This document shows positions 3,039-29,332 of a DNA stretch of 40,753 bases, in pieces. The DNA comes from an archaeon (GTDB lineage Archaea > Nanobdellota > Nanobdellia > Woesearchaeales > ARS49). Each line of letters starts with the position of its first letter. Positions within the stretch are counted from its first letter, which is position 1. The stretch is from assembly GCA_020051845.1 (NCBI GenBank), contig JAGVQG010000025.1:1-40753 (forward strand), in the 5' to 3' direction. The notes beneath the pieces were generated by a model. The model made no database searches. It saw only the letters and a list, made by a program, of their open reading frames with translations, and had not been told where the DNA came from. A program made the position numbers and the translations under genes.

Positions 3039-4514
3039 TCATCTAGTCTCAACTTCCCTCGGCGTCCATCTGACTCGCTTCAGGAGCTGCAATGATGACC
3101 TCACGTTGCGGTATGCCTCTCCCGGATGCAATATGTTCTGGAGGGTCTTGCGTACCATGAACTTCGGCCTGAAGTAATATTCTCGAAGCGCCCTGTCGCA
3201 GAAGTTGAAAAGGTCCTGGTTCGTGAGTTCAGGAGTCGACAATACGCAATCATACTGTCCGTCTTCAGTGAGCCATTTCGAGAAGTCCGTCGTCATTATG
3301 TAGCCTTTCTCCTTGGCCCAGTCGTAAGACTCGGTTCCTGGGTATAGCATTATCGGAAAGAACTGGACCATGTCTGTATCCATCTCCTTCGCGAAGGCGA
3401 GTGTCTGTTCCATCGTCTCACGCGTCTCGCCTATGTTACCGACCATGTAAGCGGCGTGGACCATCAGTCCGGCCTTCTTGCTATCCTTGACAAACTCCCT
3501 TATCTGAATGATCGCGATTCCCTTCGCTATGTTGTTGAGTATCTGCTGGCTGCCGCTCTCGAAGCCACACGTAACTAGGCGACATCCTGCGGCCTTCATT
3601 TTGACCATAGTCTCATAATCTAGGTCTGCGCGCGTGTTCGCGTACCAGCGGACTTTCAAGCCGCGCTCGATTATCAGTTCCGATATCATGCGCACTCGTT
3701 GTTTGTCTATTGTGAACGTGTCATCCTCGATGCCGACCTCACGCACGAACGGAAGCTCTTTCTTGATGTACTCTAATTCATCGACGACGCTTTCCGGGCT
3801 TCTTGGCCGATATGCCCTGCCGTGTATGGTCTGTGGATAGACACAGAACTTGCATCGTCCGATGCAGCCCCTTCCTGTGATTATCATCACCATAGGGTAT
3901 TGAGCGGCGCCGAAGTAATAATTCCGGATATTGAGGTGTTTTTTGTAGACGCTAGTTACGAATGGAAGGTCGTCGAGGTTCTCTATATGTTGCCTTTCTC
4001 CTGTGAAGACCAGGTCCTTGCCCTTTCGCAGGCAAAGGCCTTTGACCTTCTGCAGACCACCTCCCATGGAAAGGGTCTGCGCGAGTTCCCGCACCGTGTA
4101 ATCATATTCACCCTTGACAATCGCGTCGATGTTTGGGCTGAGCTGAAGGGTCTCTTTGGGCAGGCTTGAGACATGTGTTCCAACCAGGCAGATGAACGTT
4201 TTCGGGAAACGTGATTTTATCTGGTCTGCGACTCGTACATCGTTGTATATGCTGGGTGTGCTTGTCTCCATAACCACGAGATCCGGGATGAATCCTCCAA
4301 GCCGTTCGTACACTTGCGGCAGGGTTATCCTGTCCGCGCACGCGTCGATGAACTTGACGTCGAATCCTTGTTCCTTTTCGAGCACGCCTGTCGCATATGC
4401 GAGCCAGAATGGATAATACACTGTTCCGCTCTTCGTTATTGCAGGACTACGTGAATTGCGCGAGAACTTGCCTATTTCCACCTTGAATGGTGGATTGAGG
4501 AAAAGAACGTTCAT
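3039..4514 (-). CDS. B12-binding-type radical SAM enzyme (HpnJ/BchE-like architecture)
   Basis: 491 residues. The N-terminal ~180 residues look like a cobalamin-binding Rossmann domain (MNVLFLNPPF start, then WLAYATGVLEKE, PDLVVMETSTPS, and CLVGTHVSSLP), without the DxHxxG of classical base-off binders, which is common in this class. The radical SAM core follows with CIGRCKFC. Members catalyse methylations or C-C bond chemistry on lipids, sugars and other metabolites; the substrate here is unknown. The start is set by a GAGGTGAG ribosome site just before the ATG at 4514; the ORF-track start lies 12 codons upstream and would run through that site. It is the last gene of the operon that begins at 7145, and the stop of the preceding tiny gene sits inside its ribosome site, so translation is probably coupled. 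Confidence 0.85.
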   Translation of the reverse strand: MNVLFLNPPFKVEIGKFSRNSRSPAITKSGTVYYPFWLAYATGVLEKEQGFDVKFIDACADRITLPQVYERLGGFIPDLVVMETSTPSIYNDVRVADQIKSRFPKTFICLVGTHVSSLPKETLQLSPNIDAIVKGEYDYTVRELAQTLSMGGGLQKVKGLCLRKGKDLVFTGERQHIENLDDLPFVTSVYKKHLNIRNYYFGAAQYPMVMIITGRGCIGRCKFCVYPQTIHGRAYRPRSPESVVDELEYIKKELPFVREVGIEDDTFTIDKQRVRMISELIIERGLKVRWYANTRADLDYETMVKMKAAGCRLVTCGFESGSQQILNNIAKGIAIIQIREFVKDSKKAGLMVHAAYMVGNIGETRETMEQTLAFAKEMDTDMVQFFPIMLYPGTESYDWAKEKGYIMTTDFSKWLTEDGQYDCVLSTPELTNQDLFNFCDRALREYYFRPKFMVRKTLQNILHPGEAYRNVRSSLQLLKRVRWTPREVETR

Positions 4515-4518
4515 CTTC

Positions 4519-4647
4519 TCACCTCTTGGCGAGGATCCGGAGTATCTCAACCAGGTCTTTTCTTAGCAAGTACATCTGGTGGGCTCCGATGAGGATGGCT
4601 ACCGCAATCGGGATCTGGGTGACTAGTATTGATGTCTGCGTGTCCAT
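4519..4647 (-). CDS. Tiny single-span membrane protein B (42 residues)
   Basis: Not in the ORF track because it is short. It reads from the ATG at 4647 to TGA at 4519: a polar N-terminus (MDTQTS), one hydrophobic span (ILVTQIPIAVAILIGA) and a basic amphipathic tail (LLRKDLVEILRILAKR). Its TGA overlaps the GAGGTGA ribosome site of the B12 radical SAM gene, and only one base separates it from tiny gene A upstream. The TxIP..V..LIG core and the (M/L)R(R/K)D..xI...L tail match gene A closely, so the two are diverged tandem copies. Function unknown; coupling on both sides argues that it is translated. Predicted to be membrane-anchored with the helix tail in the cytoplasm (positive-inside). Confidence 0.75.
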   Translation of the reverse strand: MDTQTSILVTQIPIAVAILIGAHQMYLLRKDLVEILRILAKR

Positions 4648-4648
4648 A

Positions 4649-4771
4649 TCAGTTCTCAAGCATCATTTTTATCCTTTTAATATCCCTTCTCATGACAATC
4701 AACCATACAAGCCCGATGAGTGACAGCACAAAATAAGGGATATGAGTCCATACCAGCTCTGATTCGGTCAT
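4649..4771 (-). CDS. Tiny single-span membrane protein A (40 residues)
   Basis: Also missed by the ORF track. ATG at 4771, one base after the TAA of the GT2 gene (TAAAATG), and TGA at 4649, one base before gene B (TGATATG). The product has a short acidic N-terminus (MTESEL), one span (IPYFVLSLIGLVWLIV) and a basic tail (MRRDIKRIKMMLEN). It is a paralogue of gene B by the shared TxIP, LIG and RxD positions. It is packed between genes with one-base spacing, which is hard to explain unless it is translated. I know of no named family it matches; possible roles are anchoring or regulating the GT2 or the radical SAM enzyme. Confidence 0.75.
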   Translation of the reverse strand: MTESELVWTHIPYFVLSLIGLVWLIVMRRDIKRIKMMLEN

Positions 4772-4772
4772 T

Positions 4773-5534
4773 TTAACGGCTTACCAAAGACAAACACCAT
4801 TGCAGGAGTGTGCCAATGGCCAATCCAATACCTGCACCTGGGACCAGTAACAACTTATAAAGTTTGCGAACTCGCAACTCACGACGGTTTTTGATGACCC
4901 AACGGTCGAAAAAGTTGTTTATCCTAACATAGTCAATCAACCGTACATGAGTCTTGGCAAGAGGATCTGTCTTTATCGGTATTGTTTGTATCTTGGCGCC
5001 TCTTTTGAACGCCTCAAGAATCAATTCAAGTTCGATGCCAAAACCTTCTGATTGGATGTCCATGGTGCGGAGCAGGGATATGCGTATGCCCTTATACCCG
5101 CATTGAGGATCGGATATGCCTGGCATTATCAATCCGAACCATACTTTGCTCCACGCATTGACTATACTTCGCCTTTTTGAGCGGAACACGTCCCGCTCAC
5201 CAAGCACGAAATCATTGTGTTTTAGCGCATCTAAGAATTGCGGGATCTGTACAGGGTCGTGTTCTCCGTCCCCATCCATCATTATCGCGTTATCGAAGCC
5301 GTTGTCGATTGCGTACTTGAATCCATCCTTTATCGACTGCGCTTTTCCCTGGTTCTTATCGTGGGCTATGAACGCCACTGGAAAACGCTTCACTATCGCC
5401 ACGGTGTCGTCTTTCGACGCGTTGTCAACGACGACCACATGCGTTGTGTGTTTGAGGACTTCAGGGAGCACCGCACCTATGTGCGCGGACTCGTTATATA
5501 CCGGGATGACTACTATATCCCTTGACAAGCTCAT
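4773..5534 (-). CDS. GT2 glycosyltransferase, polyprenyl-phosphate sugar synthase-like
   Basis: 253 residues. A GT-A fold GT2 domain: IPVYNESAHIG at the start, VVDNASKDDT, and MMDGDGEHDP as the metal-binding DxD-type site. GISDPQCGYKGIR and the FGIELELILEA stretch are typical of dolichyl-phosphate hexose synthases (DPM1/ALG5-like). A C-terminal hydrophobic segment (LLVPGAGIGLAIGTLLQW) would tie it to the membrane. It probably moves a sugar from a nucleotide donor to a polyprenyl phosphate. It overlaps the SDR upstream by ATGA and is followed after one base by tiny membrane gene A, so it is mid-operon. Sugar identity is unknown. Confidence 0.85.
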   Translation of the reverse strand: MSLSRDIVVIPVYNESAHIGAVLPEVLKHTTHVVVVDNASKDDTVAIVKRFPVAFIAHDKNQGKAQSIKDGFKYAIDNGFDNAIMMDGDGEHDPVQIPQFLDALKHNDFVLGERDVFRSKRRSIVNAWSKVWFGLIMPGISDPQCGYKGIRISLLRTMDIQSEGFGIELELILEAFKRGAKIQTIPIKTDPLAKTHVRLIDYVRINNFFDRWVIKNRRELRVRKLYKLLLVPGAGIGLAIGTLLQWCLSLVSR

Positions 5535-7309: not shown

Positions 7310-8944
7310 TTAATCGATTCTTTTAAGTATCGTTATCTTTGGGTTCACGAAAGACACAGGAATATCAGTCAGGGTCACTTCTTTGAATTCAGCCACCACA
7401 CGATACCCTGCCTCACCATCCAGTAATTCAGAAAATAGTTGGGTGGATTCAAAGAATGACTGTGAACTATGATCTCCTTCGACAAAACGATAATCGTCGA
7501 AATATCTTCCATAATAATCGTCCGAGAGTATGATGTACTGCGGGGATTTTTCGGTGATTAGCTTATTTATGTTCTCTGCGTTCTCGGATCGCGTTCCTGA
7601 AGAAAGCCTCAAGACAGTATATTGAGGGAGTGTAGCGCTGACTTTCTGGCCGGTGAACAACTCATTAGGCGCGCTGATGTTTTTCACGGGCAGCACAGGT
7701 TCATAGCGTCCTGCGAATGATCCAATAAGCGTTCCTGACGGTATGTTGGTCACAATCCAGTCTCTGGCCGCATATCTCGAATCATGCATGAATTGTTGGT
7801 CTAACTCGACCGAGTAGACAAGGGACAAGCCCAAAATCAAGATCAACACTATCACGCGCGAGCGTCTGGAAAATACTGGCGCGCTGATAAGTATCCCCGC
7901 TGAGATGACAAGGACAGGAATTATGCAGATCATGTATCTTGCTGGCGCGAAAGTCCACCAGCCGACGCCAAAGAAATAGAACAGCGCGAACAATGGCAGC
8001 ACCAGGATGTTCTTGTTCTTTTGAGTGAATAGAAGCCAGATGATCGCGATCAATGCGACTATCGCTAACGGCGCCCCTAGCATTGAGATGATGTTGTACA
8101 GGTGCTGCAGATAACCCACTCCACCCACTATTCCTGAATCGACATTCTGTGTTTGGAAGACATACACAATGAAATTCTGATAAATCGATATGAGAGATTT
8201 CACTGGATGCATCACTATGAAAGGCGTGCCGATTGCGAATCCCAAAAGCGCCATCGACATGAACTTTATCGACGATACTATCCTTCGCTTTTGAGTCAGT
8301 ATAATGGCGAACAGGCAGAACGCTATGAAGTTAAGGGTTATGAATTTCGTAGAAAAAGATATTCCTGCGAACAATCCTGCCCAATATAATTTACGTGAAT
8401 CTTGTTCTTTCATCGCCATTGTCAAAAACAACAGTCCCACCATCAACCACATTGTCGCGGCCAGGTCGCTGTTGGTGAATTTTGCGTGTATGATTATGCC
8501 TGGCGTGACCGCCAATAGCGCAGCGGCGATAAGCCCTGCAGTCTTTCCAGCCACGTTCTTTCCTATCAAATACGCCAAGAATACTATGGCAATCGCCATC
8601 AACACACTTATAGACCTGGCTATGATATAGACGGTATAGATGAAAGATTCATCGGTCCTCAGATATTCCACGGTCAAAGGCACACCAGTCAATTTGAGAT
8701 ACAAATAGTATGGTGCAAGTGCTGCTATGATAGTGTACGCATGCATCGTTGGGCGAGGTATCTTGTCGAAAAAATTGGGATGGAGCGTTCCGCTCCTCGC
8801 CATGCTCATCACGGCAGGTACGTAAGAGTCCGGCTCCCATGCGGCCGGTAAGCCCCATGTCATTCCTGTCGAACAAAGGGCCGATGCTGTAAGCAGTATG
8901 ATAATCAACAAAGCATTGCTACCGATTAAACTTCCGAGTTTCAT
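7310..8944 (-). CDS. GT39/ArnT-like polytopic glycosyltransferase (GT-C)
   Basis: 544 residues from the ATG at 8944. It has about ten spans, and the first outside loop carries WEPDSYVPAVMSM, with the acidic residue where GT-C enzymes hold their catalytic Asp. The C-terminal 150 residues are soluble and outside. This is the layout of GT39-type enzymes that use polyprenyl-phosphate sugars on the outer face of the membrane. The acceptor is unknown. The ORF track begins at a GTG at 8959; the TATA-like AATAAATAGT (8971-8980) puts transcription start near 8950, so ATG 8944 is favoured. Single-gene unit. Confidence 0.78.
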   Translation of the reverse strand: MKLGSLIGSNALLIIILLTASALCSTGMTWGLPAAWEPDSYVPAVMSMARSGTLHPNFFDKIPRPTMHAYTIIAALAPYYLYLKLTGVPLTVEYLRTDESFIYTVYIIARSISVLMAIAIVFLAYLIGKNVAGKTAGLIAAALLAVTPGIIIHAKFTNSDLAATMWLMVGLLFLTMAMKEQDSRKLYWAGLFAGISFSTKFITLNFIAFCLFAIILTQKRRIVSSIKFMSMALLGFAIGTPFIVMHPVKSLISIYQNFIVYVFQTQNVDSGIVGGVGYLQHLYNIISMLGAPLAIVALIAIIWLLFTQKNKNILVLPLFALFYFFGVGWWTFAPARYMICIIPVLVISAGILISAPVFSRRSRVIVLILILGLSLVYSVELDQQFMHDSRYAARDWIVTNIPSGTLIGSFAGRYEPVLPVKNISAPNELFTGQKVSATLPQYTVLRLSSGTRSENAENINKLITEKSPQYIILSDDYYGRYFDDYRFVEGDHSSQSFFESTQLFSELLDGEAGYRVVAEFKEVTLTDIPVSFVNPKITILKRID

Positions 8945-8970
8945 TCCCAACACAACCACGACAAACAGTC

Positions 8971-29210: not shown

Positions 29211-29322
29211 TTGGACGGCCATAGGAGCGAGGTTCTACCCGATCCCATTCGAACTCGGCAGTCAAGCTCGCTTCCGTACCCACTTGTACTGCATTGCGCG
29301 GGAATGTGGGTAAGTTGTCCAC
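29211..29322 (+). rRNA. rrf: 5S ribosomal RNA
   Basis: About 112 bases. The conserved loop B-C region (ATCCCATTCGAACTCGGCAG, then TCAAGC) is plain, with AGCGAG pairing to CTCGCT as helix III. The two ends pair as helix I: TTGGAC at 29211-29216 with GTCCAC at 29317-29322, allowing GU. GTACTG and GTGGGTA form the helix IV/V side. No 16S, 23S or tRNA gene is near, so this 5S is not part of an rRNA operon here. Ends are accurate to about two bases. Confidence 0.93.
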
Positions 29323-29332
29323 CTTTTTTATT
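29321..29332 (+). terminator. T-run terminator behind the 5S gene
   Basis: ACCTTTTTTATT directly follows the 5S 3' end. A run of six T is the usual archaeal terminator for stable RNAs. Confidence 0.65.

Follow-up and report, generated by a model that had tools for sequence, protein, structure and literature searches.

Two tandem single-span membrane proteins encoded beside a polyprenyl-phosphate glycosyltransferase in Woesearchaeota: candidate subunits of the enzyme

In streptococci and lactococci, the gene encoding GacJ/WpsB (DUF2304) lies directly downstream of a GT2 gene; its product associates with the GT2 in a complex and increases the transfer of GlcNAc to undecaprenyl phosphate, and a model of WpsB places the contact in the last helix, at the membrane exit (PMC10821137; PMC8327497). 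Eukaryotes use DPM3 to anchor DPM1 and DPM2 to regulate it, and in yeast, Dpm1 makes up for DPM3 with its own C-terminal helix, the 75-amino-acid DPM2-type protein Yil102c-A being still required (PMC7728079). During hopanoid cyclitol ether synthesis, a GT2, a deacetylase, and a B12 radical SAM enzyme (HpnI-HpnK-HpnJ) act from one gene cluster (PMC12583986).

We analyzed a stretch of DNA of 40,753 nucleotides from a woesearchaeal archaeon (contig JAGVQG010000025.1), referred to here as the window. Genes of 40 residues are usually skipped by annotation pipelines, and the window holds two of about this size, SP1 and SP2, between a GT2 gene and a B12 radical SAM gene.

Two small genes conserved in archaea and bacteria

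The four genes lie on the minus strand in the order GT2 (5534-4773), SP1 (4771-4649), SP2 (4647-4519), and B12 radical SAM (4514-3039). SP1 encodes a 40-amino-acid single-span membrane protein (MTESELVWTHIPYFVLSLIGLVWLIVMRRDIKRIKMMLEN; motif THIPY), and SP2 encodes one of 42 amino acids (MDTQTSILVTQIPIAVAILIGAHQMYLLRKDLVEILRILAKR; motif TQIPIA). GT2 and SP1 meet at TAAAATG (stop codon at 4775-4773, ATG of SP1 at 4771), and SP1 and SP2 meet at TGATATG (stop codon at 4651-4649, ATG of SP2 at 4647), with 1 base between the ORFs. The SP2 stop codon (4521-4519) lies inside GAGGTGA (4525-4519, minus strand), the ribosome-binding site of the radical SAM gene, whose ATG is at 4514; the junction reads AGGTGAGAAGATG. 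All three junctions, read directly, are as the original prediction wrote them, and positions 4519-4771 are exactly the two ORFs that it placed between the GT2 and radical SAM genes. The gap that they fill measures 258 bases, however, and not the 257 that had been claimed.

Homologues were first noticed in genome G019, which encodes the nearest GT2 relative within the same family (40% identity); there, a 34-amino-acid ORF (MSTALIITHIPYYAVIVAGILTLRTIRKQLEQLP) and a 40-amino-acid ORF (MTTEQAILITQLPIAVGIFLGAYELYRIRKELQRIAKRKS) immediately follow the GT2 gene with ATGA overlaps. A profile of two SP2 sequences, run against 353 genomes of the order, gave clear matches (E values of 1e-6 to 1e-17) in 9 more genomes outside the profile, and in 9 of these 9 an SP1-type ORF was found immediately upstream of SP2. 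Low-scoring matches (E values of about 1e-3 and above) were treated as chance and left out. A scan of genome contigs added the archaeon ARS1414, one Deltaproteobacteria record, and one Myxococcales record; the 379 genomes searched in the myxobacterial phylum gave a third bacterial member, for a total of 3 pairs in that phylum; and the 351 genomes searched in the archaeal phylum added G784, which belongs to the same class and a different order. A search for homologues beside GT2 or B12 radical SAM genes in archaeal genomes had been suggested as a check on the prediction, and the searches recovered a conserved pair in 16 genomes, of which 13 are archaeal (mostly Woesearchaeota) and 3, bacterial, are from Myxococcota. 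SP1 precedes SP2 in all 16, with a spacing of -8 to +5 bases, and ATGA overlaps are common. Within the order, 11 of 353 genomes (3%) have the pair; since the genomes are mostly metagenome assembled, absence from any one of them is weak evidence.

Identity by codon position was 0.54/0.69/0.29 for SP2 and 0.39/0.57/0.28 for SP1, as expected for proteins under selection. Their shortness would fit chance or decayed reading frames, but this explanation is refuted by conservation of the pair in 16 genomes, together with the codon-position bias, and we give it practically no credence. Homologues with E values down to 1e-17 and the codon-position identities place both ORFs far beyond chance. We concluded that SP1 and SP2 are genuine genes.

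Searches of Pfam, NCBIfam, and PHROGs with SP1 and SP2 returned no family at or above cut-off, which agrees with the earlier remark that no named family with this pattern was known. Weak matches of single proteins to CrgA, COX2_TM, and DUF3180 were below cut-off and not common to the members, and we judged them to be composition noise. A phage or plasmid element was also considered as the source of the pair and was rejected, as viral contigs, phages, plasmids, and PHROGs gave no match.

Each of the two proteins has one hydrophobic stretch, as had been predicted for single-span small proteins. The SP1 alignment has the motif [TS]HxxY, with invariant H and Y; the SP2 alignment has the motif TQxPIA, a near-invariant E where the membrane stretch ends, and a basic RK. 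Across the 16 genomes, the tail after the hydrophobic stretch has a net charge of +2 to +7, and the segment before it has a net charge of -2 to +1. Given this distribution and the positive-inside rule, both proteins are predicted to have the N terminus outside and the basic C-terminal tail in the cytoplasm. The AlphaFold2 model of SP2 is a single continuous helix spanning residues 3 to 41 (pLDDT, 95).

When used as a query against the whole 1.33-Mb genome, SP1 matched only itself and SP2 (E value of 0.35, weak alone). Aligned by hhalign, profiles of 14 SP1 sequences and 14 SP2 sequences matched over 43 columns (probability, 98.1; P = 1.1e-13). As a control, we permuted columns segment by segment (N-terminal, membrane, and tail) in 150 trials; the best shuffle reached a probability of 29.7 and the best score was 19.5, compared to an observed score of 59.6, such that 0 of 150 came close. 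The ungapped similarity and the tandem duplication proposed originally are thereby upheld. We concluded that SP1 and SP2 are diverged duplicates. Since there is one SP1 and one SP2 per genome, the duplication is older than the archaeal and bacterial copies seen.

The GT2 enzyme and the neighborhood of the pair

The GT2 (4773-5534, minus strand) is of the DPMS/ArnC/AglJ type. Its profile best matched dolichol monophosphate mannose synthase (5mlz; E value of 7.4e-24), followed by ArnC and GtrB. The structural model (pLDDT, 90.8) ends in one long C-terminal helix, a membrane helix comprising residues 224 to 252, and Foldseek comparison with the PDB placed ArnC and DPMS at the top (E value of about 3e-14; probability, 1.00). 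Against AglJ (TIGR04182), the protein scored 76.2 bits, under the cut-off of 325. We concluded that the GT2 is a polyprenyl-phosphate glycosyltransferase by class; from its fold and family, it would be expected to act at the cytoplasmic membrane face, attaching a sugar to a polyprenyl (dolichyl-type) phosphate.

The subfamily containing this GT2 is bounded by a gap in E values (1e-69 or better versus 1e-54 or worse). It occurs in 8 genomes of the order, all 8 of which have the pair; another 3 genomes have the pair but not this GT2 (Fisher p, 3-4e-14). The GT2 is no more than about 2 kb from the pair in 11 of the 16 genomes. The pair adjoins the GT2 directly on the downstream side in seven (G000, G019, G038, G239, G111, G354, and G422; in G111, the contigs are split, with the GT2 on one and the GT2 C terminus and the pair on another) and directly on the upstream side in two (G075 and G784), and the GT2 is within 2 kb in G355 and G353. 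The distance is 12 kb in G114, and the GT2 and the pair are on separate contigs in G117. No GT2 of the SP-linked clade was found in the assemblies of G057, G058, and G234, in which the pair is present.

A tree built from 75 GT2s groups the SP-linked enzymes in one clade (support, 98/95; recovered in all bootstrap trees), apart from the enzymes linked to DUF2304 genes. Complete SP-linked GT2s are 243 to 262 amino acids long, and DUF2304-linked GT2s are nearly all 216 to 246 amino acids long. Among the loci examined, no DUF2304 gene shared a locus with an SP pair, but some genomes (G038, G239, and G234) have both systems at different places. The SP-linked clade includes the GT2s of the bacterial members as well as those of the archaea, which suggests that the GT2-SP1-SP2 unit moved between domains. 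At three other loci (L006, L014, and L024), a protein of ~450 to 500 amino acids is encoded upstream of a DUF2304-type GT2; by eye, its C-terminal domain resembles an FKBP-type prolyl isomerase, and the protein is perhaps an oligosaccharyltransferase-FKBP fusion.

The best NCBIfam match of the B12-binding radical SAM enzyme encoded after SP2 (3039-4514, minus strand) is HpnJ (TIGR03471), at 412.5 bits, which does not reach the cut-off of 577.6 and is far above every other family. From this match, ring-contraction chemistry on a surface sugar is possible in this archaeon. After the B12 radical SAM gene, and in the same direction, comes a gene (1814-2962) for another radical SAM protein, this one with a SPASM domain. 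Radical SAM genes are frequent around the pair, and NodB-type polysaccharide deacetylase genes occur in several loci. The B12 radical SAM enzymes near pairs are of diverse subtypes, and the 9.4-kb contig of G019 has no radical SAM gene; hence, gene neighborhoods rule out a radical SAM enzyme as the constant partner. We concluded that the nearly constant partner of the pair is the GT2. The original prediction had considered a membrane anchor for the GT2 or the radical SAM enzyme. Co-occurrence, adjacency, and the GT2 clade substantiate the link to the GT2, but the link to the radical SAM enzyme as a constant partner was not sustained. Nor can plain anchoring be the whole role, since the GT2 has its own C-terminal membrane helix and therefore does not need an anchor.

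The remaining neighborhoods vary. A compact cluster, radical SAM-GT2-SP1-SP2-NodB-type deacetylase, is found in G354 and G422 (Myxococcota). Among the three Myxococcota records (L093:3462-5294, L137:5801-9075, and L138), the two with the compact cluster are reminiscent of HpnJ/HpnI/HpnK logic; in the third, the pair and the group of radical SAM, GT2, and deacetylase genes are divergently oriented. G058 has the pair followed by two radical SAM genes and a deacetylase gene, without a GT2, and has tRNA-like sequences beside the pair; G057 and G234 have stand-alone copies. In G114 and G117, the pair lies between genes for a carbamoyltransferase and an unannotated membrane protein. G117 (L076:6740-8905) and G114 (L079:6222-8390) share one block, in which a gene for a conserved protein of 721/722 amino acids that has no Pfam match, the pair, and a NodU-type carbamoyltransferase gene stand in direct succession. 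The window itself has a PMT-type GT-C gene (7310-8959), and a 5S rRNA gene (29211-29323; Rfam RF00001, 69.7 bits) is on the same contig as the glycan genes. We found no clear NodB-type deacetylase in the window's genome, where the single PF01522 match is at another locus. An HpnIKJ-type cyclitol pathway in this organism was accordingly set aside as speculation, given that no deacetylase gene is adjacent and the sole PF01522 match is elsewhere.

Possible roles of SP1 and SP2

We consider it reasonably probable that SP1 and SP2 are diverged, tandem-duplicate, one-helix membrane subunits of the adjoining GT2. Each protein would cross the membrane once, with its N terminus outside, and its helix would be prolonged as a basic amphipathic tail in the cytoplasm. 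The two helices would pair via conserved intramembrane polar residues (T/S-H and Y in SP1; T-Q, P, and E in SP2), and an SP1-SP2 heterodimer is plausible. The pair would pack on the C-terminal membrane helix and the catalytic domain of the GT2. Such packing may stabilize or activate the enzyme and set its active site over the lipid, the same job that GacJ does for GacI and DPM2/DPM3 do for DPM1. We propose this pairing and packing because the window's system, with a DPMS-type chain that has its own C-terminal helix and two small membrane proteins, follows the same logic as these known systems. Counted against a subunit role were the three genomes without a clade GT2 (G057, G058, and G234), the separation of the pair from the GT2 in G114 and G117, the self-anchoring of the GT2, and the weakness of the similarity to the DUF2304 tail.

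The pair could instead be a membrane scaffold for a wider pathway (GT2, polysaccharide deacetylase, and B12 radical SAM enzyme) that brings soluble enzymes together at a lipid-linked sugar. The radical SAM gene immediately after SP2 in the window's operon would fit such a scaffold, as would the recurrence of radical SAM and NodB-type deacetylase genes near the pair in G354, G422, and, without a GT2, G058. We nevertheless think a scaffold unlikely, since only the GT2 is a nearly constant neighbor: the radical SAM subtypes are diverse, the G019 contig has none, and the window's genome has no clear NodB-type deacetylase. A role in flipping or export of the lipid-linked sugar, with the pair taking the place that known systems give to GtrA or ArnE/ArnF between a GT2 and a GT-C, is suggested by the resemblance of a polyprenyl-phosphate GT2, small membrane proteins, and a PMT-type GT-C (7310-8959) to three-component systems and by the conserved polar residues within the membrane helices. 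With one helix per protein, though, a large oligomer would be needed, and there is no sequence match to such proteins; we regard this role as improbable. To much the same low degree, or slightly lower, we credit an independent job, such as membrane sensing or assembly of another complex, for a pair often carried with glycan clusters. Stand-alone copies (G057 and G234), tRNA-like sequences (G058), and the carbamoyltransferase (G114 and G117) point that way; against it, the pair accompanies one GT2 clade in 8 of 8 genomes of the order, and bacteria show this link too.

A broader formulation of the GT2 subunit role, which we hold only tentatively, is that the pair represents an unnamed class of two-protein, heterodimeric subunits with one helix each. 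This class would have arisen by tandem duplication, would be present in Woesearchaeota and Myxococcota probably via gene transfer, and, in one GT2 clade, would take the place of the three-span DUF2304 subunit. If so, a pathway may follow in which a lipid-linked sugar is deacetylated and then rebuilt by B12 radical SAM enzymes.

Archaea and bacteria both conserve the pair, and it marks one GT2 clade faithfully enough to predict members. If SP1 and SP2 are GT2 subunits, they would rank with the smallest subunits known for a lipid-phosphate glycosyltransferase and would serve as a minimal system for asking how DPM-type enzymes are activated or positioned by small helices, a question relevant to DPM2/DPM3 and GacJ. 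A further lead from the pair is unexplored surface-glycan chemistry in DPANN archaea, involving a deacetylase and a B12 radical SAM enzyme.

Comparison with known systems

The window's radical SAM enzyme best matches HpnJ, which likens the locus to HpnI-HpnK-HpnJ. In contrast to that system, the HpnJ cut-off is not reached, the radical SAM enzymes of other SP loci are farther off, and the window has no adjacent deacetylase gene. We know of no SP-like genes in hpn clusters. The ArnC-ArnD-ArnE/F-ArnT system of aminoarabinose lipid modification is alike in its ArnC-like GT2, in the deacetylase and small membrane proteins found in some loci, and in the nearby GT-C. ArnE and ArnF are four-span SMR-type proteins, and GtrA also has four helices; SP1 and SP2 have no Pfam match to these flippase-type families and have one span, not a four-span fold.

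DPM2/DPM3 resemble the pair in being two small hydrophobic subunits that act with one DPMS catalytic chain. They are about twice the length of the SPs, with two spans each, and to our knowledge occur only in eukaryotes. Neither SP matched the Pfam families of DPM2 and DPM3 at E values up to 10, and neither has two spans. The DPM2-type subunit of yeast is closer in one respect, as its partner Dpm1 has its own C-terminal membrane helix (PMC7728079).

The GacJ/WpsB/EpaJ proteins (DUF2304, PF10066), whose partners GacI/WpsA/EpaI are polyprenyl-phosphate GlcNAc synthases, are encoded, like the SPs, beside a DPMS-like GT2, usually directly downstream; in 11 of the 16 genomes, the SP pair has such a neighbor at a distance of about 2 kb or less. 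Both types have a membrane helix that continues as a basic cytoplasmic helix, and the DUF2304-linked GT2s of relatives are a neighboring type to the SP-linked GT2s. However, GacJ-type proteins have about 110 amino acids and three spans in one protein, whereas the SPs have 40 and 42 amino acids and one span each, and the GT2 partners of DUF2304 proteins are shorter, without the C-terminal membrane helix of the SP-linked GT2. A PF10066 search with SP1 and SP2 gave no match at E values up to 10, compared to 78 bits for a true DUF2304 protein of the neighboring type. We also considered whether the SPs are DUF2304 fragments, but only the basic tail of SP2 aligned (probability, 49.5; SP1, 5.9), and we did not accept homology. 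We concluded from profile, length, and span count that SP1 and SP2 are outside the DUF2304, DPM2/DPM3, and flippase families. What they may share with GacJ or DPM2/DPM3 is, at most, a way of working.
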